From an uncultured Lachnospiraceae bacterium (GTDB lineage: Bacteria > Bacillota > Clostridia > Lachnospirales > Lachnospiraceae), in NCBI GenBank assembly GCA_900318375.1, contig ONKG01000007.1, positions 62,001 through 126,000 on the forward strand: 64,000 nt of DNA. Reading direction: 5' to 3'. Position numbers and translations under genes: made by a program. Shown here one piece after another: positions 12,939 to 58,098 of the stretch. How positions within the stretch are numbered: the first letter of the stretch is position 1; each line of letters begins with the position of its first letter. Below the pieces are notes generated by a model. That model saw only the letters and a program-made list of their open reading frames with translations, searched no databases and was not told the DNA's origin.

Positions 12939-13004
12939 CCGGCAGTCTCTGCGGACAATTGTCCGCAGCAGCAATTAATAATAATTAATCCACCGCAATG
13001 AAAA

Positions 13005-13090
13005 CAGGGAAGATGCGGCCCTGCCGCCCGCTGCCCAGGCCTGTCCGTACCCGCCGTAAGGCGGAATAATTCATTACACAGGCAGTGACA
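13005..13090 (+). repeat. Copy A of a dispersed 3'-end RNA-like element (shortened form)
   Basis: Located between the LacI stop and its terminator, in sense orientation. The distal half is intact: GCCTGT (13039-13044) pairs with ACAGGC (13078-13083) around a CCGCC-GTAA-GGCGG hairpin (13051-13064). The proximal half has a different hairpin, CAGGG with CCCTG (13005-13023), in place of the ATATGAACTG stem seen in the other three copies. Confidence 0.7.
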
Positions 13091-13100
13091 CAATAGAAAA

Positions 13101-13156
13101 AACCCGCATGTCATTCCGGATTCAGCAATCCGGAATGACATGCGGGTTCTTATTTG
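13101..13156 (+). terminator. Strong terminator, bidirectional in form, after the LacI-family gene
   Basis: A perfect 22-bp inverted repeat (13101-13122 with 13127-13148, loop CAGC) is preceded by A-rich and followed by T-rich sequence. It separates the plus-strand regulator gene from the convergent membrane-protein gene ending at 13214. Confidence 0.88.
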
Positions 13157-13213: not shown

Positions 13214-13795
13214 TCAGCCGAACCTGACAATCTGCAGGGCTATGCCGATCAGAAAAAGGAGTACTCCCCCCATACCGAAGGCCCTGCTGCAGGGCTCCGC
13301 GCCCCAGATCTGACCGGAAATGTAGCCGCCCGCTGCAGACACGACCGAGATAATAAAGGCACAGATGAGCACAACAGGAAGGCTGTACTGCAAAAGTCCG
13401 CAGGCAATGCCCGCAAACAGTCCGTGCACGCACATGCGCAGTGCCAGCAGCAGGTCCTGACGGATATCCAGCTGTTCCATACGGTGCTCCAGAAATGTTT
13501 TTTTCTGAACCGCCTTCATCAGCATACGCACTCCGATCCCTGCAAGTATCAGACCCGCCAGGAGATTTACCCAGAAAATACTGCGCTCTTTAGAAATCTC
13601 AAAGTTCAGGATCCAGCGCCCTGCTCCGTAACCCGCCAGGGATGCGCCCACATGGATCGTTCCCCAGGTCAGGGCCATGATCCCGGTCCTCACATCCATT
13701 CTGACCAGATTGGCTCCCTCCTGGATCACAACACCGTAGATTCCCAGGGCCAGTCCCGCGGATATTAACATAATAAACAGTGTATGTATTCCCAT
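13214..13795 (-). CDS. MntP/YtaF-like six-helix membrane protein
   Basis: The product (193 residues from the start chosen) has six hydrophobic helices arranged as two triplets, each ending in a Gly-rich helix (NLLAGLILAGIGVRML and GGVLLFLIGIALQIV), as in the MntP manganese-exporter fold. The acidic residues that bind manganese in MntP are not visible at the expected helix starts (RMCVHGLFAG has His where MntP has Asp), so transport of Mn is doubtful. An ATG at 13861 overlaps the preceding stop as TGATG and could give a form 22 residues longer; the internal ATG at 13795 is preferred for its AAGGGA ribosome site and because a helix follows at once. It is probably co-transcribed with the heptad-repeat gene upstream. 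Confidence 0.65.
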   Translation of the reverse strand: MGIHTLFIMLISAGLALGIYGVVIQEGANLVRMDVRTGIMALTWGTIHVGASLAGYGAGRWILNFEISKERSIFWVNLLAGLILAGIGVRMLMKAVQKKTFLEHRMEQLDIRQDLLLALRMCVHGLFAGIACGLLQYSLPVVLICAFIISVVSAAGGYISGQIWGAEPCSRAFGMGGVLLFLIGIALQIVRFG

Positions 13796-13860
13796 ATTTC
13801 CCTTGCCGCCTTCCAAAAATCGCTGCCACGCTTTTCTGCCGGTATTTCCGGAACGGGGCA

Positions 13861-16800
13861 TCAGTCTTCGTCCGTCTCAATACCGTCGGTCTTAATAATG
13901 AATTTCACATTGTTGTCTTCATTATTGAGTGCACCGCTGAAGGTCTTATAGGACTTGGCCGCATCCTTGAGCTGCATCAGACTGTCGTCCAGGGATTTGA
14001 TATTTGTCCTGTAAATATCCGCCAGCTTCTTGATGCCGTCATCGCGGAACTCTATGACACCGTCGTTGAGTTCGATGCATCCGTCCAGCATTTCCTGCAT
14101 GCCGTCCACGAATTCTCCCACGCCGTCCACCAGCTCTCCGGTGCCGTCATTGAGCTTTCCGGAAGCGTCACTGAGCTTGGAGGTGCCGTCCGCAAGCTTG
14201 CCCGCGCCTTCGCTGATCGTCTCCGCGCCGCTGATATATTTATTGATTCCCTCGGCAAGGACATCGGCACCGGATTTTGCCGCAGCTGCTCCTGCGGAGA
14301 GCTTATTCGCCCCGGTATTGACTGCCGAAACACCGTCCGTGTATGCCTTGATTCCCGTCTGCAGCTGGATCGAACCGGCATTTACAGACGCAATACCGTC
14401 CGCGAGCCCGGCTGCGCCGTTTTTGATCGATGTCATGCCGCCTGTCAGAATACTGTTCCTGGACGCGATCAAAGAGAGTCCGGCCGCAAGTCCCTTCTCT
14501 CCATACAGAGAGTCATTCAAAGTCTGAACACCGTCGTTTACAGCCGAAACACCGTCCCGTACCGCAGTCCCGGAGCCCTTAAGCGTCAAAAGCCGGGTCT
14601 GCATGGGGTCACCGCTCAATGTACCGTAGAGTTCTCCCAGACCGTCACTGACCAGGCCGGCCCCGGTCTTCAGCTCCTCCATCCTTTCAGCAGCCGTCTT
14701 CCCGTCCTCATCCTCTGCAGCCATGGCTTCGCCGATTCCCGCGATCGCCTTCGCGTCTGCGGCAAGTGTTGATGCGTCTGCGGCAAGGGTCTCTTCGGCA
14801 TCCGTCTTCAGTGTGCCGGCGTCTTCCTTCAGGGTGGTGACGTCCGAATTCAGAGTATCCAGCGAGAGCTTATCCGCCGCCTCGGCCGCATCCTTGAGGT
14901 CTTTCGCTTTGTCGGAGGTATCCTTGGCAGCTGAAGCCACCTTGCCCGCCTCCGCTGCCAGGCTGCCGGCGGCGCTCTTCACAGAATCGGCCGCATCGGA
15001 AATCGATCCAACCGCTGCTTTTGCATCATCTTTCGCATCATCCAGACCGCTTTTGGCGTCCTCAATACTGTCCGCCGCCTGGCCGGCCTTGTCGTGCGCA
15101 GTCATCAGTGCTTCATTCTTTTCCTCGATCACTCCGTTCGCTTCCTCGACCTTTTTGCTGACAGCCTCTTTGGCGTCTTCTTCGGCCTGACCGACGGCAT
15201 CATCGATCGCGTCTTTTGCAGCATCTGCCGCAGCATTCGCGGCACTTTTCTTCTCCTCATCGCTCATGCTGTCGGGAAGAGAATCGTACACTTCATCATA
15301 TACCGTCTTCCGCAGGTCTCCGCTGTCAACACTGATGTCGGTATCTCCGGCGGAAATCTTGCCGTCATCTTTGTCAGCAACCTTGGAGGCAGCTGCTGCA
15401 TCATTGATGGGATCGCCCACCTTGCCGAGCGCATCCTTTGCGTCATCGAAAGCACTGTCTGCGGATGAACCAGCAGTATCCGCGGCAGTCACGGCATCCC
15501 CGGCCTTCTTTCCGGGGCCCTTTTCCTCATCTTCAACGGCGTCTTTGGCATCCTCCGCTGTTTTCTTCGCTGCGTCTGCCGAGTCGATCACATCCTGCGC
15601 ATCGTCAGAAGCCCCTGCCAGCGTAGTCTTTACAGATTTCGCGTCATCGATAAAATCCGCCGCGTCGGATGCCGCGTCGCCCGCATGCTCCGCCGCAGTA
15701 CCCGCGTGTCCCGCGGCCGTACCTGCGTCTGACGCCGCCTTTCCGGCTGCTTTTGCCGCAGCTTCGATGCTTCCGCTGAGCTGGCTGACCGTCCCGACGA
15801 TCTCATCCACACCCGCTTTTACACCGGCAGCCCCGGCGGAAAGCTTTCCGACGGAAACAGTGATATTTCCTTCTCCCGCTTCCTCTCCTTCACCGGGAAG
15901 CAGAAGGCTGTCCGCAAGCGCGTTGACTCCGTTCACATAAGCAGGAACACCTTTTTCCTCATCTGCAAGCTGCGCCGCGCCATCGCTAAGAGTCTGCACA
16001 CTCTCCTTTGCGCCGTTGAGTTTTTCACTTGCCGCTGCCACGCCGCTCGTATAGGAGCTGATTCCGTCCGCAATCACATTCAGGCCGGTCTGCAGGGCAG
16101 AAATACCTCCTCCCAGCGTAGTCTCGCCGTCTGTTCCGGTTCCTGCCACCAGAAGACCGATGCCGTCATTGAGGGCAGCATTTTTCTCTGCAAGAGTATT
16201 TGTGCCGTCTGCCAGGGTCTGCGCGCCGTCTGCCAGCGTTCCGGCCCCTTCGTTCAGTGTCTTTACACCGTCTTTCAGATCCTTGTCATTCTCCGTAAGT
16301 GTATTTGTGCCGTCCGCCAGAGTCTGCGCCCCTTCGTTCACCTGATCTACGCCGTCGGTATAATCGCCGATGCCGTCCGCAAGTTCCTTCACACCGTCAT
16401 AGAGAGTATCTGTGCCGTCTTTTGCCTCCTGTACACCGTCCACAAGTTCCTGCGTACCGTCCGCCAGCTCATCGCCGTCCTTTTCAAGATCGCCGACCTT
16501 CTCATCCATCTCATCGAAGGCGTCTTTATGATCTTCGTCAAAATCCTTCTCATCATCCTCGTCCATCTCAAAGACGTTGGAGAAGACCATAGTCAGGCAG
16601 GTACTCATCTTGAAATCGGTGGCGTCCATGGTGATCTCAATACTGCCGGGAATATCCAGTTCGTCGATTCTGTCCAGAGTCTTCTGTTTATCCTCGTCAT
16701 CAAGCTTGTTGACGATATCCTTGGATTCGGTGCGTACTGTTTTGAGACTGTCCTCAAGCCCGGGGAAAGCCATACCCACAACCATGGTATTCTTGCCCTC

Positions 16801-26007: not shown

Positions 26008-28434
26008 ATGAATTGCTCAAATTGCGGCCGTCCCATCCCCGAAGGAAATCTTTTCTGCCTAAACTGCGGCGCCGGCGTTTCCGCCGGCTCCCCCGGCCCT
26101 GCTCCGGGAGGGTCGGATTATCCCCGTATGAGTCCCTCCGGGCCTGCACCTGCACCGGCCCCTGCATATAGTTCCCGTCCCGGCTCTTTCGGAAAGATTT
26201 CCGAAGGTGTGAGGATCGTGCGCAGCCTTGCCGGCTCCGCTCAGTTTCTGGCTGCATCGATCACCTTCACCCTCTCTATTGTGCTGGGGCTGATCGTCTC
26301 CAGTACAGCATACAGTTCCACCCTCAACCGGCTGCTGTCTTTATTGAATGAAATGGGCTTATCCGGTTCCGAGCTGTCCGAGTTGGAATCCCTGAGGGAA
26401 TACGCTTATAGAATCGACTCTGCTTCCTTTGGGATCGGACTCTTGTTCAGTATCCCTGCCATACTTACTGCAGTAGGGCTGTGGATGACTTATATGGAAG
26501 GCAGAAAGACAGAAAAAAGGGACTTTTCGACAACAGGTCTTTCCATCATTCATGTCCTTGCCATTCTGGATTTCGTCGTCACCTGTATTATCTGCGCAAT
26601 TATCACGCTGTTCGTACTGATCTCTGTCTTTGGGATTCTGTCTTATATGTCGTCAGATGACAGCGGAGGTGTGATCGCCGGCATATTGATCGGAGTCGCG
26701 CTGTTCGCCCTTATCATTGTACTGGTTCTGCTTTACAAATTTAAAGTATTCCAGATGGTGGGAGCCGCAAAAGAAATGGCCTTGTCCGGAAAACCGGTCC
26801 AGAAGGCATCTATGTATGTCGGCATCATTCTGATGATCAGTGCAGTTTTCTCTCTGCCCGGCATATTCACAGGCCTTGCGACATCGATTTTTGTATCTCT
26901 GCAGTCGCTTTGCAGCATCATTTACACTGTGTGTTTCGCGCTGCTGATCTTCTCCTGCAGAAGTAAGACCGAAGATGCTCTCCTTAATCCGGGGGCAGAT
27001 TATTACAGCGGATCCTCCGATCCTGAAAGGCTTTATAATGATTCACCTCGTTCAGGCGCATCGCCTGACCTGACTCCCTACGCGGAAGCTGCAGGCCGTC
27101 CCGCCTCTCCGGTTTCGCCTTACGGCGGTGCCCCCGGCGCTTCCGGAGGACGTCCCGTCCCCCCGGCTCCGCCCTATGCCGGCCGTTCCGGCGCTCCCGT
27201 CGGCCGGCCCGCTTCCCCGGCTTCGCCTTACGGCGGTGCCCCCGGTGCTCCTGCCGGCCGTCCCGTCTCCCCGGCTTCGCCTTACGGCGGCGCCCCCGGC
27301 GCTCCCGCAGGCCGTCCCACCTCCCCGGCTTCGCCTTACGGCGGTGCCCCCGGCGCTCCCGCCGGCCGTCCCGCCTCCCCGGCTTCGCCTTACGGCGGCG
27401 CCCCCGGAACTCCTGCAGGCCGTCCCGCCTCTCCGGTTTCGCCTTACGGCGGCAGCCCCGGCGCTCCCGCCGGATCGTCCCCGTCCTATCGCCCGGTTGA
27501 CGTCTCGGGATTCGGTCCCGCCTCCTCTTCTTCCGGTTCAGGCGCGGATTTCTCTCCTCTTGATTTTGGTCTCTCTGACATGACCTCTTTGAATTCTGAT
27601 GAAAAACAGCCGTCTTACGGACGTCCGGCAGAGGACAATTCCTTCGGATTTTCCGGCTTTTCCTCAGACAGCAGCAGTGACTACTCTATGAATTTCACTG
27701 CCTCGGGTCCTTCAGACAGGCTCAAGGGATCCCTCCTCAATTCCCTGCAGGATGGAGGAAAGGACAGCGCACAGGAAAACAGGGAACCCGCTCCCTCCAG
27801 ACTGAAAGGTTCTCTTTTACAGTCACAGGCCGATCGCGCATCGGAATCCGATTATTCCGACAGTTCATCTGCCTCCGCGGATCTCTTCTCCGATCAGGGA
27901 CAGGCTGCGGATGTGCCCGGCTACCCGGACAATAGTTTCCCTCTGCCGGAAGAAGCTGCCCCCGCGGCTGAAGAGCCCGCATACGATACACCTGCCGCAG
28001 CTCCTGCCGGACAGCCCGCCGAAGATTATTCTCTTCCGGAACAGCTTGAGACCGTTGACAGCTCCTACAATCCAGCCACCGTATACGCAAGTCCTTACGA
28101 GACTACCTCCCTGGATGAAGCGACGCTCCGACAGCCTCATGCATACCTGTTCCGAGTGAAGGACAACACAGAATTTGCCATCAACATACCCTTTCTCCGC
28201 ATAGGCAGAAGCTCCTCCCTGTCAGATTATGTCATCGAGGACAATCCGGCAATCGGCAGGCATCACGCGGACATCGTCTGCCATGGCACTGATTTCAGCA
28301 TCATAGACAATAATTCCGTCAACCATGTTTATGTAGACGGCTCCATCATACCTGCCGGGCAGGAGATTCCTCTTCCCGATCAGGCTGAGATCCGCCTCGC
28401 GGATGAAACCTTCCTCTTCAAAGTGGAGAGGTAA
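26008..28434 (+). CDS. Zinc-ribbon, six-helix membrane, Pro/Gly repeat and FHA domain protein
   Basis: The 808-residue protein has four visible parts. A zinc ribbon opens it (NCSNCGRPIP...FCLNCG, residues 2-22). About six membrane helices lie between residues 75 and 320. A low-complexity stretch (about 360-500) has seven or eight 18-residue units of the form SPYGGAPGAPAGRP. A Ser/Asp/Pro-rich linker leads to a C-terminal FHA domain (about 712-806) with LRIGRSSSLSDYVI, GRHHADI and SVNHVYVDG. FHA domains bind phosphothreonine; the Arg of the GR motif is present but the usual Ser before RxH is Gly. It may read phosphorylation by the Hanks-type kinase encoded nearby. AAGGAG precedes the ATG. The repeat units are near-identical at DNA level, so length may vary between strains. 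Confidence 0.85.
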   Translation: MNCSNCGRPIPEGNLFCLNCGAGVSAGSPGPAPGGSDYPRMSPSGPAPAPAPAYSSRPGSFGKISEGVRIVRSLAGSAQFLAASITFTLSIVLGLIVSSTAYSSTLNRLLSLLNEMGLSGSELSELESLREYAYRIDSASFGIGLLFSIPAILTAVGLWMTYMEGRKTEKRDFSTTGLSIIHVLAILDFVVTCIICAIITLFVLISVFGILSYMSSDDSGGVIAGILIGVALFALIIVLVLLYKFKVFQMVGAAKEMALSGKPVQKASMYVGIILMISAVFSLPGIFTGLATSIFVSLQSLCSIIYTVCFALLIFSCRSKTEDALLNPGADYYSGSSDPERLYNDSPRSGASPDLTPYAEAAGRPASPVSPYGGAPGASGGRPVPPAPPYAGRSGAPVGRPASPASPYGGAPGAPAGRPVSPASPYGGAPGAPAGRPTSPASPYGGAPGAPAGRPASPASPYGGAPGTPAGRPASPVSPYGGSPGAPAGSSPSYRPVDVSGFGPASSSSGSGADFSPLDFGLSDMTSLNSDEKQPSYGRPAEDNSFGFSGFSSDSSSDYSMNFTASGPSDRLKGSLLNSLQDGGKDSAQENREPAPSRLKGSLLQSQADRASESDYSDSSSASADLFSDQGQAADVPGYPDNSFPLPEEAAPAAEEPAYDTPAAAPAGQPAEDYSLPEQLETVDSSYNPATVYASPYETTSLDEATLRQPHAYLFRVKDNTEFAINIPFLRIGRSSSLSDYVIEDNPAIGRHHADIVCHGTDFSIIDNNSVNHVYVDGSIIPAGQEIPLPDQAEIRLADETFLFKVER

Positions 28435-33216: not shown

Positions 33217-33308
33217 GCACGTTTGGACTGGTGTGCCGGACAGCAGCAGGCTTGCGGGCATCAGACTTGCCGGCTTCAGACTTGTCAAAAAACAAAACAG
33301 CAATGTTT

Positions 33309-33480
33309 ATAATATGATGTTGAGGTCAAAAGGTGGTTAAGGGAACACCGTCTCGTCAAGTTGCACAAACGCCTTGGGCACGCTCTCGCTCTACCCTCGC
33401 TGGCAGCGCCCTTCGGCTGTTTGTGCAACTTGACGAGACTCAGAGCCAATGGATACCTTTTGACCTTTACATCATAATAT
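33309..33480. repeat. Nested inverted-repeat element (MITE-like) between kinase and LRR genes
   Basis: Outer arms of 26 bases (33309-33334 and 33455-33480) match as inverted repeats with about four mismatches and contain AGGTCAAAAGGT. Inner arms of 21 bases (33350-33370 and 33419-33439) match perfectly; each contains TTGCACAAAC or its complement. A central loop of about 48 bases has further pairing potential (GGGC/GCCC). No transposase is present. It may be a non-autonomous mobile element or a very stable RNA/DNA cruciform in this 560-base divergent gap. The rest of the gap (33491-33680) holds only the ribosome site of the next gene. Confidence 0.8.
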
Positions 33481-33680
33481 ATGTTATAATCTTATGGGAA
33501 ATGCCGTTTTCAGAGCAGCCCGAATACAGTGCATAGTTCAATGCCTCAAGATCGTCATAACTGCGGCCGCGGGCGGGTGCCCGGTCATGACTGCTGTATG
33601 ATTGGAACAATAACTGCGGTCATCCGCAGCAGACTGATTTCTATCTACTTTTATATTTTAAACGGAAGGAAATAACGGAT

Positions 33681-38988: not shown

Positions 38989-40122
38989 ATGTTTTGTCCA
39001 CATTGCGGCAGCCAGTTGGAAGGAACTCCGAAATTCTGCGGAGTCTGCGGACACAAGATCCCGAGTGGTTCATCCGGCGGATCCAAACTGACTTTCAGCC
39101 CGTCCGGCGGCAGCTTTAACGGATTTTCACAAGGTGAGGAACTGAACAGCGGTTCTTATTCAGATATGAGCGGGGCGGGAGCCTATAGCAGCAGCGATCA
39201 GTATGGTGCCTCCGGCAGCAGCGGATCTTCTGCCTCTTCCTACGATTACGGTGATAACAGCAATTACAATTCCGGCGGCTATGGGGCCGAAGCTCCCGGC
39301 AGCTACAGCGGTGACAGCGGTTACGGCTCTGACGGCTATGGCGCGGGCGGTTACAGTTCTGGCGGCTATGGCTCTGACGGCTACAACTCTAACGGCTATG
39401 GCTCTGACGGTTACGGTACAGGCGGCAGTGTTCCTACTCCCCCTCCTGTGACTCCCGGTTACAATCCCGGCTCTGACAACGGCTCCTACTTCGACGGTAC
39501 TGGCGGTGAAATCTTCGTCAAACTCATCCTTTTCTCACTCCTGACTGTCGTCACCTGCTCGCTTGCAACCCCCTGGATCCTGGTAGATATCCTTCGCTGG
39601 CGCAAGAGACATACCGTCATCAACGGCAAGCGCCTCGACTTCGACGGTACAGCCGGAGAACTCTTCGGCCTCTGGATCAAATGGCTGCTTCTCAGCGTAG
39701 TCACCTGCGGCATCTACAGCTACTGGGTCCGTAAAGACTACCTGGATTGGGAGAAGAGCCATACCTTCTATGAAGGACAGGCTCCTTACTCCAGCACAGG
39801 CGAACGCATCTCCTATTTCGACGGAAGCCTGTTCGAGCTCGTCGGTGTCAGCCACCTTGCTCAGCTGTTGAAAGCCGTCACCTGCGGCATCGGCGGCGCA
39901 TGGGGTGACAACTGGGCCAACGAGGTTGAGTTCAAGGGAACCTGCATCTGCGGAGACCGTTTCTTCTATACCGGAACCGGCGGAGCCATCTTCGGCCTCT
40001 ATATCAAGAACGTTCTGCTCACAGGCATTACCTGCGGAATCTATGCCCCCTGGGCAATGTGCGCAGTCTACCGCTACTTCTACAGCAATGTTCACTACGA
40101 TCCCAAGAAGTCCGGTCACTGA
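38989..40122 (+). CDS. Zinc-ribbon, Gly/Ser/Tyr-rich, DUF898 membrane protein
   Basis: The 377-residue protein starts with a zinc ribbon (CPHCGSQLEGTPKFCGVC, residues 3-20). A low-complexity region of about 130 residues is rich in Gly, Ser and Tyr (units like GYGSDGYGAGGYSS). The C-terminal half (about 165-370) is a DUF898/YjgN-type membrane domain of three related units, each with F-x-G-x-G-G-E-x-F, a hydrophobic helix, then TCGIYSYW or a variant (TCGIYAPW). The middle unit is followed by one whose motif is modified to TCGIGGAW. The function of DUF898 proteins is unknown. AAGGAGGAG precedes the ATG. It is the third protein in this cluster with an N-terminal zinc ribbon. An RNA-like element and a terminator follow. 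Confidence 0.87.
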   Translation: MFCPHCGSQLEGTPKFCGVCGHKIPSGSSGGSKLTFSPSGGSFNGFSQGEELNSGSYSDMSGAGAYSSSDQYGASGSSGSSASSYDYGDNSNYNSGGYGAEAPGSYSGDSGYGSDGYGAGGYSSGGYGSDGYNSNGYGSDGYGTGGSVPTPPPVTPGYNPGSDNGSYFDGTGGEIFVKLILFSLLTVVTCSLATPWILVDILRWRKRHTVINGKRLDFDGTAGELFGLWIKWLLLSVVTCGIYSYWVRKDYLDWEKSHTFYEGQAPYSSTGERISYFDGSLFELVGVSHLAQLLKAVTCGIGGAWGDNWANEVEFKGTCICGDRFFYTGTGGAIFGLYIKNVLLTGITCGIYAPWAMCAVYRYFYSNVHYDPKKSGH

Positions 40123-40186
40123 TCACATACTCTCTTATACAATCTGTTCCGTGCGCGGAAGCAGGGCAGAGGAAGCCCTGCGAACA

Positions 40187-40290
40187 GGGTAAAGGCGGCA
40201 ATATGGACTGCTTTGCAGTTCATATGCGCCCCCTGCCCCGACCTGTCCGTGTCCGCCGAAAACCGGAAAAATACATTACACGGGACATAT
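40187..40290 (+). repeat. Copy B of the dispersed 3'-end RNA-like element
   Basis: It lies between the DUF898 stop and its terminator, in sense orientation. ATATGGACTG (40201-40210) pairs with CAGTTCATAT (40216-40225) with one G-U. GTCCGTGT (40245-40252) pairs with ACACGGGAC (40278-40286) with one bulge. The inner CCGCC hairpin is partly degenerate here. A separate hairpin CAGGGC/GCCCTG lies just upstream (about 40162-40180). Confidence 0.8.
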
Positions 40291-40296
40291 CATGAT

Positions 40297-40352
40297 AAAA
40301 AAGAAGCAGCTCCTGCACCGGGTAAATACCGCCGGCAGGCAGCTGCTTTTTT
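40297..40352 (+). terminator. Terminator of the DUF2752-DUF898 operon
   Basis: AAAAAAGAAGCAGCTCCTGC pairs with GCAGG-CAGCTGCTTTTTT (ending 40352) around an 18-base loop. The form is bidirectional, and thiD ends on the other side at 40418. A 17-base direct repeat (TGTCAGAACTTCATGTC at 40367 and 40392) follows it. Confidence 0.8.
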
Positions 40353-40417: not shown

Positions 40418-41215
40418 TCACTGAAGGAACTCTCCCTCGATCGCAAAGGCATGATTCATGGGGCCTCTTCCCTTTCCCAGATCCAGCATGGCAGCCAGAG
40501 CGCCGGAAATATAGTTCTTGGCACTCTTTACTGCAGTCGGAAGATCATATCCCTTGGCCAGGCCGGATGCGATCGCGCTTGAAAGCGTACAGCCGGTCCC
40601 GTGGGTATTGGGATTGTCGATCCTCTTCCCCCTGAACCAGATCAATTCCTTTCCATCATATAGAAGATCGTTAGCGTCGTTGATACTGTGGCCGCCCTTG
40701 CAGAGAACGCCGCAGCCGTACATCTCATAGATTTCCTTTGCGACAGCTTCCATATCCTCACTGGTGCGCACGGTGCGTCCCGAGAGCACTTCCGCCTCCG
40801 GAATATTGGGTGTGATCACCGCGGCGATGGGAAGAAGTTCCTTTTTCAAAGTCTCAATGGCATCTTCGCTGATCAGTCTGGCTCCGCTGGTGGCGACCAT
40901 GACCGGATCAACGACAATATTTTCCGCTCCGTAAAAGCGGAGCCTCTCCGCGATCACCTCGATGAGGGCAGAAGATGAAACCATTCCTGTTTTCACTGCA
41001 TCCGGACGGATATCCGTGAAAATACAATCCAGCTGCTCCTTCAGAAAGTCAGGAGTAACTTCCATAATACCTGTTACGCCGGTCGTATTCTGCGCAGTCA
41101 GGGCAGTGATCGCGCTCATGGCATAGACTCCGTTCGCGGTCATTGTCTTGATATCTGCCTGGATGCCGGCGCCTCCGCTGGAATCACTTCCGGCGATCGT
41201 TAATGCAGTCCTCAT
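40418..41215 (-). CDS. thiD: Hydroxymethylpyrimidine/phosphomethylpyrimidine kinase
   Basis: The 265-residue enzyme matches ThiD over its whole length. It begins with ALTIAGSDSSGGAGIQADIK (residues 3-22), has NGVYAMSAITALTAQNT, the KTGMVSS block, DPVMVATSG, and the C-terminal anion hole GTGCTLSSAIA (about 211-221) with the catalytic Cys/Asp region. It phosphorylates 4-amino-5-hydroxymethyl-2-methylpyrimidine twice to give the pyrophosphate used in thiamine synthesis or salvage. No other thi gene is adjacent. No TPP riboswitch is seen upstream. AAGGAGACTAAAT precedes the ATG. Dual use with pyridoxal is known in some Bacillota relatives and cannot be excluded. Confidence 0.93.
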   Translation of the reverse strand: MRTALTIAGSDSSGGAGIQADIKTMTANGVYAMSAITALTAQNTTGVTGIMEVTPDFLKEQLDCIFTDIRPDAVKTGMVSSSALIEVIAERLRFYGAENIVVDPVMVATSGARLISEDAIETLKKELLPIAAVITPNIPEAEVLSGRTVRTSEDMEAVAKEIYEMYGCGVLCKGGHSINDANDLLYDGKELIWFRGKRIDNPNTHGTGCTLSSAIASGLAKGYDLPTAVKSAKNYISGALAAMLDLGKGRGPMNHAFAIEGEFLQ

Positions 41216-41267: not shown

Positions 41268-41306
41268 AGCGGCAGAAGGTGGTGCCCCCGATCTGCCGCT
41301 TTTTTT
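41268..41306. terminator. Terminator-like stem upstream of thiD
   Basis: AGCGGCAGA (41268-41276) pairs with TCTGCCGCT (41292-41300). The T-run (seven T) is on the plus-strand side, while on the minus strand the stem is followed only by ATAAAAAATT. It directly follows element copy C on the minus strand, so it occupies the same place as the terminators after copies A, B and D, but its polarity for a minus-strand transcript is imperfect. Confidence 0.55.
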
Positions 41307-41310
41307 GACA

Positions 41311-41411
41311 CAGCCCGTGTAACGTGATTTTCCGCCTTACGGCAGATACGGGCCGGTCGGAGCAGAGAACGCATATGAACTGCAAAGCAGTTCATATTGC
41401 CGCCTCTGCCC
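41311..41411 (-). repeat. Copy C of the dispersed 3'-end RNA-like element
   Basis: It lies on the minus strand, sense to and 40 bases after the PNPOx-like gene. GGGCAGAG (41411-41404) pairs with CTCTGCTC (41367-41360), enclosing ATATGAACTG/CAGTTCATAT (41397-41373). GCCCGT (41353-41348) pairs with ACGGGC (41318-41313) around CTGCC-GTAA-GGCGG (41345-41332). Confidence 0.85.
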
Positions 41412-41452
41412 TATTTAATCTTGTTTATGCTTATATACTTTTTATCTTATTC

Positions 41453-41851
41453 TTATGAGAGAAGATCCACCCCGGGGCCCATCATTGCGATCTCGACTGC
41501 CGTGGCTTCTTCCAGATGGAAGACCATCATCTTGTGGCCGGTCTTCTCGTTGTAGATGTCCTTCAGATTAGGCATCACCTCAAGACCTGCTGCCTCGTAT
41601 TTGGGATCGGTATCAAACACGGCCTTGCCGGTGTAGCGCATCCAGTGTCCGTCGGGCTTGCAGGCCACAATCTCCACCTTGGGATTGGCGACCAGCTGCT
41701 TGTAGACATCCTTAAAATCGCCTACGCCGAACATCTCTTTTCCTTCCATCTCCATGTGGAAACCAAGGGGACGGAGTTTGGGCTGATCGCCGTCTGCTGT
41801 CGCGAGAAAAAAGACACCTGCTTCATTCAGAAAATCATGTACTTTGCTCAT
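41453..41851 (-). CDS. Pyridoxamine 5'-phosphate oxidase family flavoprotein
   Basis: The 132-residue protein has the split-barrel FMN-binding fold signature of the PNPOx-like family: VFFLATADGDQPKLRPLGF near the N-terminus (about residues 13-31), MFGVGDFKDVYKQLVANPKVEIVAC, and the C-terminal HKMMVFHLEEATAVEI. Small members like this usually bind FMN or heme or reduce nitro-compounds and quinones; they are not the vitamin B6 oxidase itself. The start at 41851 is fixed by GAGGAGG 5 bases upstream; a methionine at 41878 would put the ribosome site inside the gene. It is cytoplasmic and stands alone. The exact substrate is unknown. Confidence 0.87.
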   Translation of the reverse strand: MSKVHDFLNEAGVFFLATADGDQPKLRPLGFHMEMEGKEMFGVGDFKDVYKQLVANPKVEIVACKPDGHWMRYTGKAVFDTDPKYEAAGLEVMPNLKDIYNEKTGHKMMVFHLEEATAVEIAMMGPGVDLLS

Positions 41852-41982
41852 TTTTCCTCCTCTATCATTCATAAACATTCATAAAATAACAAATATTCCG
41901 TCTGCTGACTGTTCTTTATAAGGTCAAAGTAAATTATAGCTTTTCAATGTGTTTTTCGCAATAACCCTGCCCCGTCAGAGAT

Positions 41983-43215
41983 TCAGGCATTGAACACACA
42001 GCGGTCCAGGCGGTCCATGGCCTCCTCCACCCGGGAGAGAGGCAGAGCCAGATTAATGCGCAGATGGCAGGATCCGCGGAACATCTTTCCGTCCTGCAGG
42101 GCGACTCCTGCCTGCCAGCACAGATGCTCGACTTCCTGCAGGGTTTTCCCGTGTTCCTCACACCACCCTGTGCAGTCCGGGAAAAGCATATAAGTGCCCT
42201 GGGGATCGGCCAGGCTGACGCCTTTGAAATGTGTGCGAATATATTCCGCCGCATAGCGGACATTGCCGGTGAGTACGTGAAGCAGTTCAGCCAGCCACGC
42301 CTGTCCCTCATCCGTGTAGGCGCCGATCAGGGCATACATGGAGAGAACATTCATCTCATTGTAATGGCAGAGCGAAGATTCCTTGAGGATACGCTCACGA
42401 AGAGTCTTATTGTAAATAATATGATAGCTGCCGACCAGACCTGCCAGGTTGAAGGTCTTGGAAGGAGCGTAGAGAGCCACTGTATTTTCACGGGCATAGT
42501 CACTGACACTCTGGACCGGGATATGCCTGTATCCCTCCAGAATGAGGTCGGACCAGATTTCATCGCTGATGACCTTTACCTCATATTTTTCAAAAATCGC
42601 GAAGGCGCGCTCCAGTTCCTCTCTTTGCCACACACATCCGCAGGGGTTGTGAGGCGAGCAGAAAACCGCCGCATGGATATGCTGTTCGCGTATCTTTCTC
42701 TCCATGTCGTCATAGTCCATACGCCATCTGCTCACACCGGGCGCCGTCTCCTCACAGATCAGGGGACTGTGGACAATGTGGTAACCGTTGTTGCGAAGCG
42801 TATTCGTAAAACCGATATAGGTGGGACTGTGGACGAGAACATTGTCGCCGCGGGAGCAGAAAACATTCAATGCACTGACAAGACCGCCCAGTACACCATT
42901 TTCATAACCGATGCAGTCCCTTGTCAGGCCTTGAACGGCCTCCGCACCGTGACGCTCCTGCTGCCAGCGGATGATCGAGTCATAATACTCGTCCCGAGGC
43001 CTGAAATATCCGAAGGCCGGATGCTGCAGACGCTGCGAAACAGCCTGTATGATAGAAGGAGCCGCGGGAAAATTCATGTCCGCGACCCACATGGGGATCA
43101 CGTCAAAGCCTTCCGCAGGTGCCTCGGGAGCAAATCCGCTCAGATTTCCGATGGCATCAACTGCGAGAGCATCATGTCCGCGCCGATCCATAATAGTAGT
43201 AAAGTCATATTTCAT
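41983..43215 (-). CDS. MalY/PatB family PLP-dependent C-S lyase (cystathionine beta-lyase type)
   Basis: The 410-residue enzyme starts MKYDFTTIMDRRGHDALAVD as in MalY/PatB proteins. It shows PMWVADMNFP (about 38-47), YENGVLGGLVSALN, the cofactor-binding FCSPHNPCGCVWQ, VISDEIWSDLIL, and the PLP lysine Lys253 in APSKTFNLAG, with SCHLRINLALP near the end. Family members cleave cystathionine or related cysteine conjugates to pyruvate, ammonia and a thiol. GGGGAGG is about 14 bases before the ATG at 43215, somewhat far; a methionine at 43260 is less likely by homology. The gene is not next to other sulfur genes, so the physiological substrate is open. Confidence 0.92.
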   Translation of the reverse strand: MKYDFTTIMDRRGHDALAVDAIGNLSGFAPEAPAEGFDVIPMWVADMNFPAAPSIIQAVSQRLQHPAFGYFRPRDEYYDSIIRWQQERHGAEAVQGLTRDCIGYENGVLGGLVSALNVFCSRGDNVLVHSPTYIGFTNTLRNNGYHIVHSPLICEETAPGVSRWRMDYDDMERKIREQHIHAAVFCSPHNPCGCVWQREELERAFAIFEKYEVKVISDEIWSDLILEGYRHIPVQSVSDYARENTVALYAPSKTFNLAGLVGSYHIIYNKTLRERILKESSLCHYNEMNVLSMYALIGAYTDEGQAWLAELLHVLTGNVRYAAEYIRTHFKGVSLADPQGTYMLFPDCTGWCEEHGKTLQEVEHLCWQAGVALQDGKMFRGSCHLRINLALPLSRVEEAMDRLDRCVFNA

Positions 43216-43313
43216 CGCTATAATAGTAACCTCCCCTTTGTCTTTTTGTATACTTATCAAGTATATGTCCGGTCAATACGGAAGTCAATCAAGGCGGGGA
43301 AAACGTGCTTACA

Positions 43314-43413
43314 GCGTATTGACGGTGTATCGCCAGCGCATTAGCGTATTGACGGTGTATCGCCAGCGTATTAGCGTATTGACGGTGTATCGCCAGCGTA
43401 TTAGCGTATTGAC
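43314..43413. repeat. 30-bp tandem repeat upstream of the C-S lyase gene
   Basis: Three near-identical 30-bp copies (43314-43343, 43344-43373, 43374-43403) and a 10-base partial fourth. The unit GCGTATTGACGGTGTATCGC plus CAGCGTATTA contains TATTGACGGTG. The copies differ at only one position. They abut without spacers, so this is not CRISPR. The array is about 100 bases before the divergent lyase start. Confidence 0.92.
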
Positions 43414-53810: not shown

Positions 53811-55121
53811 ATGAATATCCGTGAAGAAGCAAGGAAAATGAAGCTTGTCGCTCCTGTTCTTGCCGCGTCTTCCAATGAGACAAGAAATGCTGCGCTGCGC
53901 GCGATCGCGGACGCATTGAAAGCAAATAAGGAAAAGATCTTTGCCGCAAATGCAGAAGACTGCAGAGCCGCCGGGGAAAACGGTATCGCTCCTGCCGTCA
54001 TGAAGCGTCTTGCCTTTAATGAGGCTAAGCTTACAGATGTCTGCAAGGGAATCGACCAGCTGATCTCACTTCCCGATCCGATCGGAAAGTCTCTCCTCAA
54101 AAGAGAACTGGATGCAGGCCTTGTCCTGGAGCGCGTCAGCGTTCCGATCGGTGTCATCGGCGTGATCTTTGAGGCCAGACCGGACGCTCTGGTACAGATT
54201 TCCACCCTCTGCCTCAAGAGCGGCAACTGCGCGATCCTCAAGGGCGGCAAAGAGACTGCAGGGACAAACCGTGTGCTCTTTTCCATTATTCACGACGCCG
54301 CCGTCTCTGCGGGACTTCCTTCCGAATGCCTGCTGCAGGCGGAGCTGCACAATGAAATCGATGAGCTGCTGCAGTGCGAAAAAGATGTGGACCTGCTCAT
54401 CCCCCGCGGCTCCAACCAGTTCGTCCAATATATCATGAACAACACCAAAATTCCGGTCATGGGACATGCGGACGGCATCTGCCATATCTACGTGGACCGC
54501 GATGTGGATATGGATATGGCGATCAATATCATCATCGACGCCAAGACACAGTACACAGCAGCCTGCAACGCCGTCGAGACTATCCTGATCAACCGGGAGA
54601 TCGCACCCGTCTTCCTTCCTCTCCTTGCCAGGTCACTCAAAGCCGCCGGCGTGAAGCTGCGGGGCACACAGGAGGCAGAGGATCTGATCGCCCGCTCCTC
54701 CGACGCAGCGGCGCAGATCGACGCTGTCGACATTATGGACGATGACGATTTCCGCACGGAATACCTCGACATGATCATCTCCCTGAAGGTCGTTGCAGAC
54801 GTCGAAGAAGCCATAGATCACATCAACCGCTATGGATCTCATCACACGGATTCCATCCTCACCCGCGATGACGCCGCCGCAGCCCGCTTCATGCAGATGG
54901 TCGACTCCGCAGGCGTCTACCGCAACTGCTCCACCCGCTTCGCGGATGGCTTCCGCTACGGCTTCGGAGCAGAGGTCGGCATCAGCACCAGCAAGCTCCA
55001 TGCCCGCGGTCCCGTCGGCCTCGAAGGTCTCGTGACCTACAAATACCTGATCACCGGCAGCGGTCAGATCGTAGGCGATTACGCCAGCGGCAGAAGCAGT
55101 TTCCACTTCAAAGATCTTTAA
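53811..55121 (+). CDS. proA: Glutamate-5-semialdehyde dehydrogenase (gamma-glutamyl phosphate reductase)
   Basis: The 436-residue enzyme belongs to the aldehyde dehydrogenase superfamily and catalyses the second step of proline synthesis, NADPH reduction of glutamyl 5-phosphate. It shows VSVPIGVIGVIFEARPDA (about 107-124), LKSGNCAILKGGKET, VDLLIPRGSNQFV, the catalytic Cys252 in TAACNAVET, and the C-terminal RFADGFRYGFGAEVGISTSK and ARGPVGLEGL. AAGGAGG precedes the ATG. proB is not in the window on either side. An RNA-like element and a terminator follow the stop. Confidence 0.95.
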   Translation: MNIREEARKMKLVAPVLAASSNETRNAALRAIADALKANKEKIFAANAEDCRAAGENGIAPAVMKRLAFNEAKLTDVCKGIDQLISLPDPIGKSLLKRELDAGLVLERVSVPIGVIGVIFEARPDALVQISTLCLKSGNCAILKGGKETAGTNRVLFSIIHDAAVSAGLPSECLLQAELHNEIDELLQCEKDVDLLIPRGSNQFVQYIMNNTKIPVMGHADGICHIYVDRDVDMDMAINIIIDAKTQYTAACNAVETILINREIAPVFLPLLARSLKAAGVKLRGTQEAEDLIARSSDAAAQIDAVDIMDDDDFRTEYLDMIISLKVVADVEEAIDHINRYGSHHTDSILTRDDAAAARFMQMVDSAGVYRNCSTRFADGFRYGFGAEVGISTSKLHARGPVGLEGLVTYKYLITGSGQIVGDYASGRSSFHFKDL

Positions 55122-55148
55122 ACCGGCAGGCACAATGCCGTCTCAATA

Positions 55149-55250
55149 GGGTAGAGTCGGCAATATGAACTGCTTTGCAGTTCATATGCTCCCTCTGCCC
55201 ACGACCGGCCCGTGTCCGCCGTAAGGCGGAAAAATACATTACACAGGCCG
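55149..55250 (+). repeat. Copy D of the dispersed 3'-end RNA-like element (best-preserved copy)
   Basis: It lies 27 bases after the proA stop. GGGTAGAG (55149-55156) pairs with CTCTGCCC (55193-55200). The enclosed hairpin ATATGAACTG-CTTTG-CAGTTCATAT occupies 55163-55187. CGGCCCGTGT (55206-55215) pairs with ACACAGGCCG (55241-55250) with one mismatch, around CCGCC-GTAA-GGCGG (55216-55229). Confidence 0.85.
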
Positions 55251-55259
55251 TGTCATAAA

Positions 55260-55300
55260 AAAATGGTCACACCTGATCAGGTGTGGCCATTTTGTTTTTT
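55260..55300 (+). terminator. Terminator of the rlmH-proA operon
   Basis: AAAATGGTCACACCT pairs with AGGTGTGGCCATTTT (55260-55293, loop GATC) with one G-U, followed by GTTTTTT. The converging CotH gene ends at 55303. Confidence 0.88.
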
Positions 55301-55302
55301 CA

Positions 55303-57762
55303 TCAGGGAATTCTCTCTGCAAGGGCACGCACAGTGACCTTCACTGCCTCTTCTCCGGCAGATCCTGACGTTTCCGATGATTCTTTCGATGATTCCGAGG
55401 AAGGCTCAGACGATCCGGCGGTCCCGCCGGAAGCCAAAGCCTCGCTTACCGCCAGCAAAGCTGTATCCCCGTAACCGGAATCCGCGTCAGCCTCAATAAA
55501 TGTCCCGTTGACCTCCCATCCGGTGATGCGGTATCCCTGCTCCGCCCTGGCAGTGACTGTAAAGGATGTTCCGCAGTAATACTCGTTAGACCAGGAGGCT
55601 CCGGGAGAAACCGTCATATTGTTCCATGTGATGCAGGCGCCCTCCCCTGCCTCGATCCGCACGCTGTAGCGTTCCTCCAGTCCCATGTATTTTTTGATAT
55701 TGGCACGGTAAAGCTCTTCTTTTTCCCGGACATTGTTTTTGGTCTTATCGGCAGTATCCACCATCTCTGCCCAGAAAGCCCCGCCGTAATCGCGGATGTA
55801 TTCCTTCTCCATATCCTCATAGAGCGCATCGAGGACCGCGCAGGCGTAATCGGGTTCGAACACCGTTTTCAGAAGGTCATCGACATAGGTCAGGAAAGTA
55901 TCCCGATATCTGCTGCACTGCATAACATGGAAGAAGGTATTCCCTTTATCCTTCATCAGATAATCGATGAGCTCCGATGACCACTGCTCGGGTATCCCGT
56001 GCAGGTCATTGGTGAGAATCTGGTCCATATCATCCAGAATAAATCTGTAACGGCCGTCCGTGTAGGGATTTTCCGGATCCTGCTCTCCGACATAGCGCCA
56101 CATAGACACATTGTTGAAGGGCCAGTCCGCGTTGTTGAAGAGGACCTCAAGCGCAAAATAGAACAGATAATTGTCCATATCCACAGCTTCTTCCAGAGCC
56201 TTCTGGTTCTCCTGCTGTGTCAGGTCCGCATTAAAGAGAGGCAGGATTTTGGTCCGGGTATACACGTCATAGTCGCTGGATTCATATTTTTCAATCGCGT
56301 CCGGCGTACCCAGTCCGAAAAGCGCGCACATATATTCTTTTGTCACACTCGGTGTGACATCACAGATCGTATAGAATTCCCCGTTGAGATAGGCGATTCC
56401 GAGCCTGGCGTCCGGCAGACCGGGAAATCCGCACGCGTCCGAGAGAATCCTGGCATATTTATTGCGCACACTCCGGATATGATACTGCGGTATGCCGTGG
56501 GTTCGAAAACGGACCTTGTTGAATGCATCCGGCTCTGACAAAACCTTCTCTGTTCCGGCCGCCTGCGCAGACCATCCGCCGTTGACATTGACCGCTGAAA
56601 CACCGCTGTCAGCACCGGGTGCGTCTGTTTCTATACTCAACAGATTGCCGGCCCTGCTGTAGGAACCTTTTTTAAAAATATCCAGGCGGAAGTATTGGTC
56701 GCTGCTTCCCATAGCAGGCGATGCCTCAACGCGCAGCGTCCTGGTCGGCAGTCCGCGCGAGCTGTATCCGCCCACAGTGATCCCCGTGTCTTCCTCGAGA
56801 AGGACTTCTCCCTCAGGGGAAAACAGGGTCACATGTCCGTATTTAATCCATTCATCGCCTTCCTGGTAAAAATTGCCGGAGCGGTCCTCTCTTTTTCCGT
56901 CGTCGATATCCTTCTGATAATGACTTCCCTTGACCATGATGCCATTATCATAATCAAAGAGATTGCGGGAATCCGTACTCAGGCATGCCACATATCCGTC
57001 ATAGCGCTCGAATACGCCCTCGCCGATCACAAACGTCCGTGTCACCACGGCGCTCATGTCATCCCCCTGCACAAGCCGCGCGCGGACAGGAATCACATAA
57101 ATACCGTCATCCTCCTGCTTTACATACACACCGTTATCAGAGGAGGCGGAATATTTTTCCTCTTCCCACTGCCGTCTCTGGTTCTGAAGTGAATAAGGAT
57201 CCGAAGAAGCATCCTGCCCCTCCGTACCTGTCTGTTCCGGAGATGGGGCCGGACCATCCGCACTGTCATCAGTTTTTTCTGTCTCTCCCTCAGCTTCTTC
57301 CGCCGAAGCATTTCCGTCTGCGGCTGTATCCGCATTGAGTTTTTCCGCCTCGGCCTTTTTTTCCTCCTCGGCTTTTTTTTCTATCTCCGCTTTTTCAGCC
57401 GCTTTCACAGCGGCTTCTTCTTTCGCGCGGAGGATCATCTTTGCAAGGTCGATCCCGCCATCGTATAAAAAGCTGTCCTGCATCGGTTCGTCACCGTTGA
57501 CAGTGTAGCGGATTTCAATGCTTTTCTCCTGCGGGATACGCGAATCCGCAGTCAGCTGCAGGACGAAGCTGTTTTCAAAAAATCCGCTGTCGGCGCTGAA
57601 AGACAGAGGATCGCCCTCCACCTTCTGTAAAGCGGCATGGAGCGTCCTCGGCCTGTCATATTTCACATAATAAAAGAACAGCAGGCCGACGAGCAGCAGT
57701 GTCATAAGAACTGCATATTTCATTACAATATTTCGTCCTGCATTTTCTCTTTTCAGATGCAT
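55303..57762 (-). CDS. CotH kinase family protein, membrane-anchored
   Basis: The 819-residue protein has one N-terminal membrane helix (about 15-33) and an extracytoplasmic remainder. A chitobiase/FN3-like beta domain comes first (about 55-95, IEIRYTVNGDEPMQ) with a Glu/Ala/Lys-rich coiled insert (about 112-190). The CotH core (about 330-690) has GYSSRGLPTRTLRVEA, FRTHGIPQYHIRSVRNKYA, GIAYLNGEFYTICDVTP and the metal-binding FILDDMDQIL. C-terminal beta repeats (GYRITGWEVNGTFIEAD) and a Ser/Glu tail end it. CotH proteins resemble protein kinases and phosphorylate spore-coat proteins in Bacillus; outside spores they occur in cellulosome and surface proteins. The target here is unknown. The ATG at 57762 is the first of two; Met14 is an alternative. 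Confidence 0.87.
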   Translation of the reverse strand: MHLKRENAGRNIVMKYAVLMTLLLVGLLFFYYVKYDRPRTLHAALQKVEGDPLSFSADSGFFENSFVLQLTADSRIPQEKSIEIRYTVNGDEPMQDSFLYDGGIDLAKMILRAKEEAAVKAAEKAEIEKKAEEEKKAEAEKLNADTAADGNASAEEAEGETEKTDDSADGPAPSPEQTGTEGQDASSDPYSLQNQRRQWEEEKYSASSDNGVYVKQEDDGIYVIPVRARLVQGDDMSAVVTRTFVIGEGVFERYDGYVACLSTDSRNLFDYDNGIMVKGSHYQKDIDDGKREDRSGNFYQEGDEWIKYGHVTLFSPEGEVLLEEDTGITVGGYSSRGLPTRTLRVEASPAMGSSDQYFRLDIFKKGSYSRAGNLLSIETDAPGADSGVSAVNVNGGWSAQAAGTEKVLSEPDAFNKVRFRTHGIPQYHIRSVRNKYARILSDACGFPGLPDARLGIAYLNGEFYTICDVTPSVTKEYMCALFGLGTPDAIEKYESSDYDVYTRTKILPLFNADLTQQENQKALEEAVDMDNYLFYFALEVLFNNADWPFNNVSMWRYVGEQDPENPYTDGRYRFILDDMDQILTNDLHGIPEQWSSELIDYLMKDKGNTFFHVMQCSRYRDTFLTYVDDLLKTVFEPDYACAVLDALYEDMEKEYIRDYGGAFWAEMVDTADKTKNNVREKEELYRANIKKYMGLEERYSVRIEAGEGACITWNNMTVSPGASWSNEYYCGTSFTVTARAEQGYRITGWEVNGTFIEADADSGYGDTALLAVSEALASGGTAGSSEPSSESSKESSETSGSAGEEAVKVTVRALAERIP

Positions 57763-57787: not shown

Positions 57788-58098
57788 TTCGCTCTTTCCG
57801 ACCATGCCGCTTGCAAGAGCGGCAGCGCGAGGAGAAAGCCCGGAAAGGGTTTCTCCGATGCGCTCACAGGATGTTTGCGGCGCTCCGACGCATACATCCG
57901 GAGTGAAAAATATTGCATCGGCAATATTTTTCGCTCTTTCCGACATGTCGAAGCGCTCCTGCGCTGAGACACCCCGAGGAGAAATTCGTGAAGACGATTT
58001 CTCCGATGGGATCACAGGATGTTTGCGGCGCTCCGTCGCAAACATCCGGAGTGAAAAATATTGCATCGGCAAGATTTTTCACTCTTTCGAACATGCCG
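57788..58098. repeat. Hairpin-rich 142/148-bp tandem duplication
   Basis: Two units (57788-57929 and 57930-58077) plus a 21-base partial third fill the 340-base gap. Each unit has three stems: GGAGAAA/TTTCTCC, GGATGTTTGCG/CGCAAACATCC (perfect in the second copy, 58017-58047) and GAAAAATATTGC/GCAATATTTTTC (57905-57932; one mismatch in copy two). The units differ by a 6-base indel and scattered substitutions. The region is downstream of the YdjG-like gene on the minus strand. Confidence 0.88.

Follow-up and report, generated by a model that had tools for sequence, protein, structure and literature searches.

The window, a stretch of 64,000 nucleotides from a contig of an uncultured Lachnospiraceae bacterium, contains four copies of a short gene-free unit (Table 1), all of which had been reported, with slightly shorter extents, in an earlier note. 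A scan with a profile built from 111 aligned matches, 109 of them distinct, recovered these four copies and one additional match at the chance level (42224-42265, 6.2 bits, E 0.31). As had been claimed, each copy in the window follows the stop codon of a gene read in the same sense. Directly next to every copy stands a hairpin with an A-tract, and the last bases of the copies overlap the T-tract of the terminator. Three of the four lie between convergent genes, where both readings of this placement look alike. Copy 3 is the exception in polarity: its hairpin lies in the leader of the divergent kinase gene, and the right-hand gene points away. All copies except 13003-13097 contain the palindrome ATATGAACTG. 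The window has no match to an Rfam family at or above the gathering score, and a relaxed search of seven loci (E<=5) gave a single match over the element, a chance-level Thr_leader (L001 1594-1653, 23 bits, E 2).

Table 1. Copies of the hairpin unit in the window, with the hairpins that adjoin them
Feature	Position	Strand	Neighbourhood or basis
Copy 1, short hairpin 1	13003-13097	+	LacI-family gene (11817-12938 +) left, Mntp gene (13214-13861 -) right
Host terminator hairpin adjoining copy 1	13098-13151	.	inverted repeat, arms 13098-13122 / 13127-13151
Copy 2, long hairpin 1	40183-40299	+	DUF898 gene (38989-40122 +) left, phosphomethylpyrimidine kinase gene (40418-41215 -) right
Terminator-like hairpin adjoining copy 2	40300-40352	.	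sequence
Copy 3, long hairpin 1	41299-41415	-	follows PNPOx-like gene (41453-41878 -); T-tract is 41300-41306
Hairpin and T-tract at copy 3	41268-41306	+	sequence; hairpin retained in G014 and G008 without the element
Copy 4, long hairpin 1	55145-55262	+	aldehyde-dehydrogenase-family gene (53811-55121 +; named proA by the earlier reader) left, CotH-family gene (55303-57762 -) right
Terminator-like hairpin adjoining copy 4	55263-55293	.	sequence

Architecture, predicted fold and decay of the stems

The unit is 96 nt long, or about 117 nt with an extra palindrome, and consists of two adjoining hairpins. Hairpin 1 reads AAYA-GGGYAGAG-GCGGC-loop-GCCGCCCTCTRCCC, and hairpin 2, which encloses an inner hairpin and also has a bulged T and an unpaired strip of 11 nt, reads GACC-GGCCCGTGT-CCGCC-NNNN-GGCGG-AAAAATACATT-ACACGGGCC-G-T-GTC-AT; on the 3' side an A-tract follows and then, usually, a terminator-like hairpin. 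Both ends are fixed, AAYAGGG... on the left (AATA or AACA in 71 of 96 copies) and ...GTGTCAT on the right, and the left flank carries no strong motif apart from a slight excess of A at positions -1 and -2. The extra palindrome, ATATGAACTGC...GCAGTTCATAT, sits in the loop of hairpin 1 in 13 of the 40 listed copies from the genome of the window, including all window copies except copy 1. Units of a second family, type B, agree with the unit described above in layout, hairpin 1 and the bulged T and have a similar tail, while their stem 2 is exchanged (GGGCTGCCGT/ACGGCAGCCC and variants).

The fold predicted for the sense strand of a young copy matches this two-hairpin layout (-58.3 kcal/mol, z -8.35), and a second copy folded on the sense strand gave z -6.94; the opposite strand of the same young copy folds equally well (-59.1 kcal/mol). 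The GNRA-type loop that had been described for the second stem occurs in 6 of 17 aligned young copies and does not generalise to the rest. On the other hand, the covariation claimed for the stems holds to a degree that depends on the sample: it is weak in the genome of the window, where 27 copies show two-sided changes in 7 pairs against 4.8 after shuffling (94 of 500 shuffles reach that number), and stronger among the 109 distinct copies, with 23 two-sided pairs against 9.7 (0 of 500) in an alignment that was itself fitted to the model. Between the subfamilies the signal is clear when counted in cells. In a hand-chosen set of 10 type A and 7 type B copies, 97% of the cells pair and 55 cells are two-sided against 20.9 in shuffles (0 of 500); 10 pairs change on both sides, with at most 3 in six slid controls, but neither this number against 7.6 in shuffles (11 of 500) nor that of pair types, 21 against 21.8 (455 of 500), is remarkable. 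Much of this A/B signal may be a single A-to-B change counted repeatedly.

The mismatches, by contrast, show no bias towards an RNA strand. There are 161 G-T and 127 A-C mismatches; 14 pairs have an excess of one kind and 13 of the other, and if three G-T-rich pairs are omitted the counts become 99 and 116. As the two kinds of mismatch are similarly frequent, neither RNA strand is favoured; so the fold matters for the founders, yet the copies favour no RNA strand.

Several other repeats were noted in the window. A MITE-like repeat distinct from the element occupies 33300-33495; it is about 185 nt long, its inverted arms are long (ATAATATGATGT..GGTCAAAAGGT / ACCTTTTGACC..ACATCATAATATA), and related copies or fragments of it occur on 6 of 8 scanned contigs of G010, another genome of the survey, and at several other loci. 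Two direct copies of 101 nt, 148 nt apart and each made of nested inverted repeats, occupy 57850-58098, and nearly identical tandem units of about 30 nt (AGCGTATTGACGGTGTATCGCC...) are found at 43313-43413. The 54-nt tandem repeats at 27089-27520 have a core, GCCTTACGGCG, that resembles the inner hairpin of the element, by chance or otherwise.

Placement and polarity

The polarity of the element was analysed for 129 distinct copies from loci L001-L135, with flanking genes assigned by a simple ORF caller that used hexamer scores learned from the window. An array-internal pattern set aside 15 copies, at least three of them (L036, L110, L130) probably wrongly because their terminators resemble hairpin 1, and 114 copies were analysed. 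At L110 (G010:C36:4397-7492; copy at 1501-1596) it is the neighbouring terminator hairpin that bears this resemblance. Of the left-hand genes, 55 are read in sense with the element and 51 against it, the other 8 being uncalled or overlapping, so that the sense relationship to the preceding gene, which holds for all four window copies, is found for only 55 of the 106 called left-hand genes in general. The right-hand gene, however, points toward the element in 93 cases and away in 17 (4 uncalled), a bias with a binomial p of 7e-14 if the copies are treated as independent, which not all of them are. A total of 43 copies are located between convergent genes, and another 43 between genes of the same direction, where the element is antisense to both.

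An adjoining hairpin exceeds the 95th percentile of shuffles (single-base shuffles, three per copy) in 98 of the 114 copies, the remaining 16 lacking a strong hairpin. Of these 98 hairpins, 81 have a T-tract (read as an A-tract, at least 5 of 8) facing the element and 43 have one on the far side; 41 have it exclusively on the element side as compared to 3 exclusively on the far side.

The same polarity appears in other material. In S24M_St_59, a separate assembly in which loci were located by exact pattern search, all 17 called right-hand genes point toward the element (n=20, 4 set aside), the left-hand genes are 4 sense and 12 antisense, and the T-tract is on the element side of 13 of 16 hairpins and on the far side of 6. 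In a 757-kb stretch of G010, some copies of which overlap the set of 129, the right-hand gene points toward type A units in 29 of 34 called cases (n=36, 7 set aside) and toward type B units in 5 of 5; for type A the left-hand gene is sense in 12 and antisense in 22 cases, and of 27 hairpins 17 have the T-tract facing the element and 7 have it on the far side. At a tRNA-Arg gene in two species, too, the element comes after the terminator, even though the ORF caller had counted this copy among the exceptions.

The polarity of the right-hand gene and of the T-tract together place the unit just behind the terminator of the opposing gene, in antisense to it, and the adjoining hairpin is thus mostly the terminator of the opposing right-hand gene.

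Copy number, occupied and empty sites

The assembly that contains the window (G000; 3.93 Mb, 82% complete) yields up to 79 matches at E<=0.01 when searched with a covariance model built from 27 copies, the weakest of them taken as scored and the first look limited to 150 candidates. A blast search with copy 4 gave 58 matches; 14 of them are echoes of the palindrome on the opposite strand, which leaves 44 places; the repeat is thus present far beyond chance. Matches at E<=1e-4 were found in 9 of 61 genomes, all 9 within one genus, with at least 67, 58, 19, 11, 2, 2, 1, 1 and 1 copies; the first number is a lower bound because the survey scored 67 candidates per genome. At the same threshold 28 of the 37 searched genomes of the genus have no match, so that copy number within the genus ranges from 0 to at least 67, and none was found in 24 genomes of the same order but other families. 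In named genomes, a pattern scan retrieved 46 stretches from five assemblies titled Lachnospiraceae or Eubacteriales, and the scanned 757 kb of G010 contain 56 type A or B places. Tandem stacks were also seen, with the last unit against the terminator. Searches of viral contigs with two exact patterns, of plasmids, and of phages by blastn with one copy (E 1e-5) gave no match.

Two sites are empty in close relatives, with the hairpin of the host retained. The leader of pheS in G000 has the order T-box, terminator, T-tract, antisense element, ribosome-binding site and gene. The T-box leader itself (L018:1194-1484) scores 72.1 bits, below the Rfam gathering score of 93. In G014, whose gene region is 89% identical, the same T-box terminator runs directly into the leader and the element is absent, whereas the pheS site of G010 shows about ten bases matching the end of the element followed by a run of Ns, and is probably also a shared site. 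The gene was matched in 6 of 41 genomes, and besides G000 only the matches in G014 and G010 reached the leader. Copy 3 of the window is absent from G014 and G008, which retain the hairpin and a shorter T-tract. That hairpin (41268-41300, GCGGCAGA..GTGGTGCCCCC..TCTGCCGC), upstream of the phosphomethylpyrimidine kinase gene, is conserved in G000, G014 and G008, and in G010 without the T-tract; it is perhaps a regulatory element of the leader, and it has no Rfam match at threshold.

From the absence of the element at these sites we infer insertion rather than loss; the intergenic DNA of the relatives at both is too diverged for target duplication to be judged. The intergenic DNA corresponding to copy 4 in G014, G008, G009 and G010 is too diverged for an empty-site comparison, and that of L112 against the window, and of L098/L170, likewise. 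Some sites, on the other hand, are common to two species, namely L051/L129 (the tRNA-Arg gene) and L068/L176; functional conservation would produce such sites as well.

Proposed mobility, rival explanations and known systems

We propose, as the probable explanation, that the unit is a non-autonomous mobile hairpin element which targets the flank of intrinsic terminators. The presence and absence of sites, the placement and polarity, the patchy copy number, the tandem stacking and the stem pairing kept between subfamilies are observed. The element would insert mostly one way, and reading along with the terminated gene one would then encounter the hairpin, the T-tract and the antisense element. 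Its folded single strand would presumably be recognised by a trans-acting enzyme, for which our first guess is an HUH (Y1) transposase that would move the element in trans by single-stranded DNA transposition, and our second guess a reverse transcriptase. The first guess is based on the single target-specific flank, the other flank being poor in motifs, on the lack of terminal inverted repeats and on the hairpins at the ends. As landing behind a stop signal would spare the genes, the copies would survive. Counted against a mobile element are the 17 of 110 called right-hand genes that point away, the 16 of 114 copies without a strong hairpin and the G010 stretch, where no more than 17 of 27 hairpins have the T-tract facing the element.

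Y1_Tnp matches, some of them long and RAYT-like, were detected in 12 of the 15 genomes searched, including genomes without a detected element. At 10 loci with such matches in 7 genomes only two 21-nt matches to the element were found (E 0.06 and 0.29), and the Y1 loci L042-L045 have no element at their flanks; since a subset of the Y1 hits was inspected, in incomplete assemblies, this absence is not final. Open frames of 272-350 aa with Y1_Tnp matches, of RAYT-like length and with no element alongside, were noted at L231, L234, L235 and L236 (G014, G020, G028). In G010, where the left end has 41 exact matches and the right end 53, inspection of 10 of each revealed no larger element carrying both ends: the matches belong to type A or B units or to decayed, truncated or internally deleted ones, and one left-end match (L258) is outside the family. 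Hence no autonomous parent with the same ends was found in the inspected loci.

The foremost alternative, which we regard as unlikely but worth stating, is mobility through RNA, with a reverse transcriptase copying the RNA of the element from a primer in the T-tract that follows the terminator; in its choice of target the element would resemble group IIC introns. The target and the side of the terminator are the same as reported for bacterial-C group II introns in the portion of PMC8919778 available to us, and the A-tract at the end of the sense strand is complementary to the T-tract of the terminator. Right-end-anchored copies at first suggested SINE-like 5' truncation, and among the 56 places in G010 15 lack the 5' part as compared to 6 lacking the 3' part (profile start >15, end <86). 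However, the fuller scan of G010 and reading of the sequences left a mixture of losses: several copies counted as 5' losses retain part of the left end and represent internal hairpin deletions, clean 3' losses also occur, and 3' pieces are easier to detect than 5' pieces. Furthermore, group II reverse transcriptase genes do not co-occur with the element, as none was found in G009 with its 19 copies, whereas strong ones are present in G018 (one copy), in G036 (no copy) and in G062, and no intron domain or other Rfam family reaches threshold in the element. In a more elaborate version, which appears to us somewhat more doubtful still, the element would be a bacterial counterpart of SINEs: a hairpin RNA of 96 nt that a reverse transcriptase inserts downstream of intrinsic terminators, starting from a primer in the T-tract. 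At least two families would belong to it, which have the fold, hairpin 1, the bulged T and the A-tract end in common and differ by the exchanged stem 2.

It is also conceivable, but improbable, that the element is useful to the host and kept by selection, e.g. as a barrier to read-through or a fail-safe between convergent genes. The placement at terminators, the 43 of 114 copies between convergent genes and the few sites common to species would agree with such a role. Nonetheless, the equal number of copies antisense to two same-direction genes, the lack of a match in most genomes of the genus, the sites that are empty in near relatives and the like decay of G-T and A-C pairs all speak against it.

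The idea put forward in the earlier note, that the repeat is a conserved structured RNA in the 3' end of the sense gene, fares differently in its two parts. A repeated, structured, terminator-adjacent element with covarying stems is supported. A functional 3'-end RNA is very improbable and has been largely refuted by orientation: random orientation relative to genes, which the note itself had taken as the mark of a DNA repeat, is what the left-hand genes display (55:51, and 4 sense to 12 antisense in S24M_St_59, i.e. reversed if anything). The stable sense fold and the covariation across subfamilies would suit such an RNA, but an equally stable fold is predicted for the opposite strand, the terminator is that of the opposing gene, the GNRA tetraloop is found in a minority of the young copies, the mismatches are unbiased and sites are empty in relatives. 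Least probable of all is a classical MITE that has terminal inverted repeats and depends on a DDE transposase. The short, non-coding, multicopy and patchy character of the element would agree with this, but the ends of the element (AAYAGGGYAGAGG and, read inward, ATGACACGGCCC, compared by eye) are not inverted repeats of each other and its flanks show no visible target duplication.

If the terminator-targeting mobile element is what we propose, repeats that spread behind stop signals would demonstrate how selfish DNA can multiply in compact genomes while leaving the genes unbroken, and the enzyme that moves them would be one that writes into the flanks of terminators. The exchanged-stem families make the features that may be recognised (the bulged T, the unpaired strip and the ends) testable. 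The case also advises caution, as covariation and adjacency to a terminator do not suffice to call a functional RNA.

We recognised no description of such a repeat in the open-access literature, and a word search in the accessible part of a REP survey (PMC12306157) returned no Lachnospir-, Clostridi- or Firmicutes. The element adjoins a hairpin as 3'-end motifs of the intrinsic-terminator or Rfam kind do, but the hairpin is that of the host, and at two sites it is retained in relatives that lack the element. With group IIC introns, which insert immediately after rho-independent terminators according to the excerpted text of PMC8919778, it shares the insertion position in the reading direction of the terminator, and the position only, since it measures 96 nt and contains neither a ribozyme nor a reverse transcriptase. 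REP palindromes are described, in the sections of PMC2817692 at hand, as linked to Y1 transposases and as being kept palindromic by complementary changes. Like the REP, BIME and REPIN elements associated with RAYT, our element is a short extragenic palindrome occurring in tens of copies and in arrays, with complementary changes (PMC2817692, same sections); however, it lacks a GTAG-type head, no rayt (Y1_Tnp) gene flanked by the repeat was seen in the inspected loci, and it has one preferred orientation at terminators. IS200/IS605 transposition, as outlined in the available extract of PMC7290912, involves no inverted repeats, no duplication, hairpins at the ends and a one-sided target, and end-only elements of the PATE type are moved in trans (PMC7290912, same extract). 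The absence of terminal inverted repeats and the hairpins near both ends are shared with these elements, but their target is a fixed tetra- or pentanucleotide rather than the T-tract side of a terminator, and no IS200/IS605 element with the ends of our unit was found in the inspected loci. We therefore class the element as REP/PATE-like and as a member of neither group, because a linked transposase gene was sought and not found. Relative to the known hairpin repeats, the specific surprise lies in its targeting of the terminator flank and in its families with exchanged stems.
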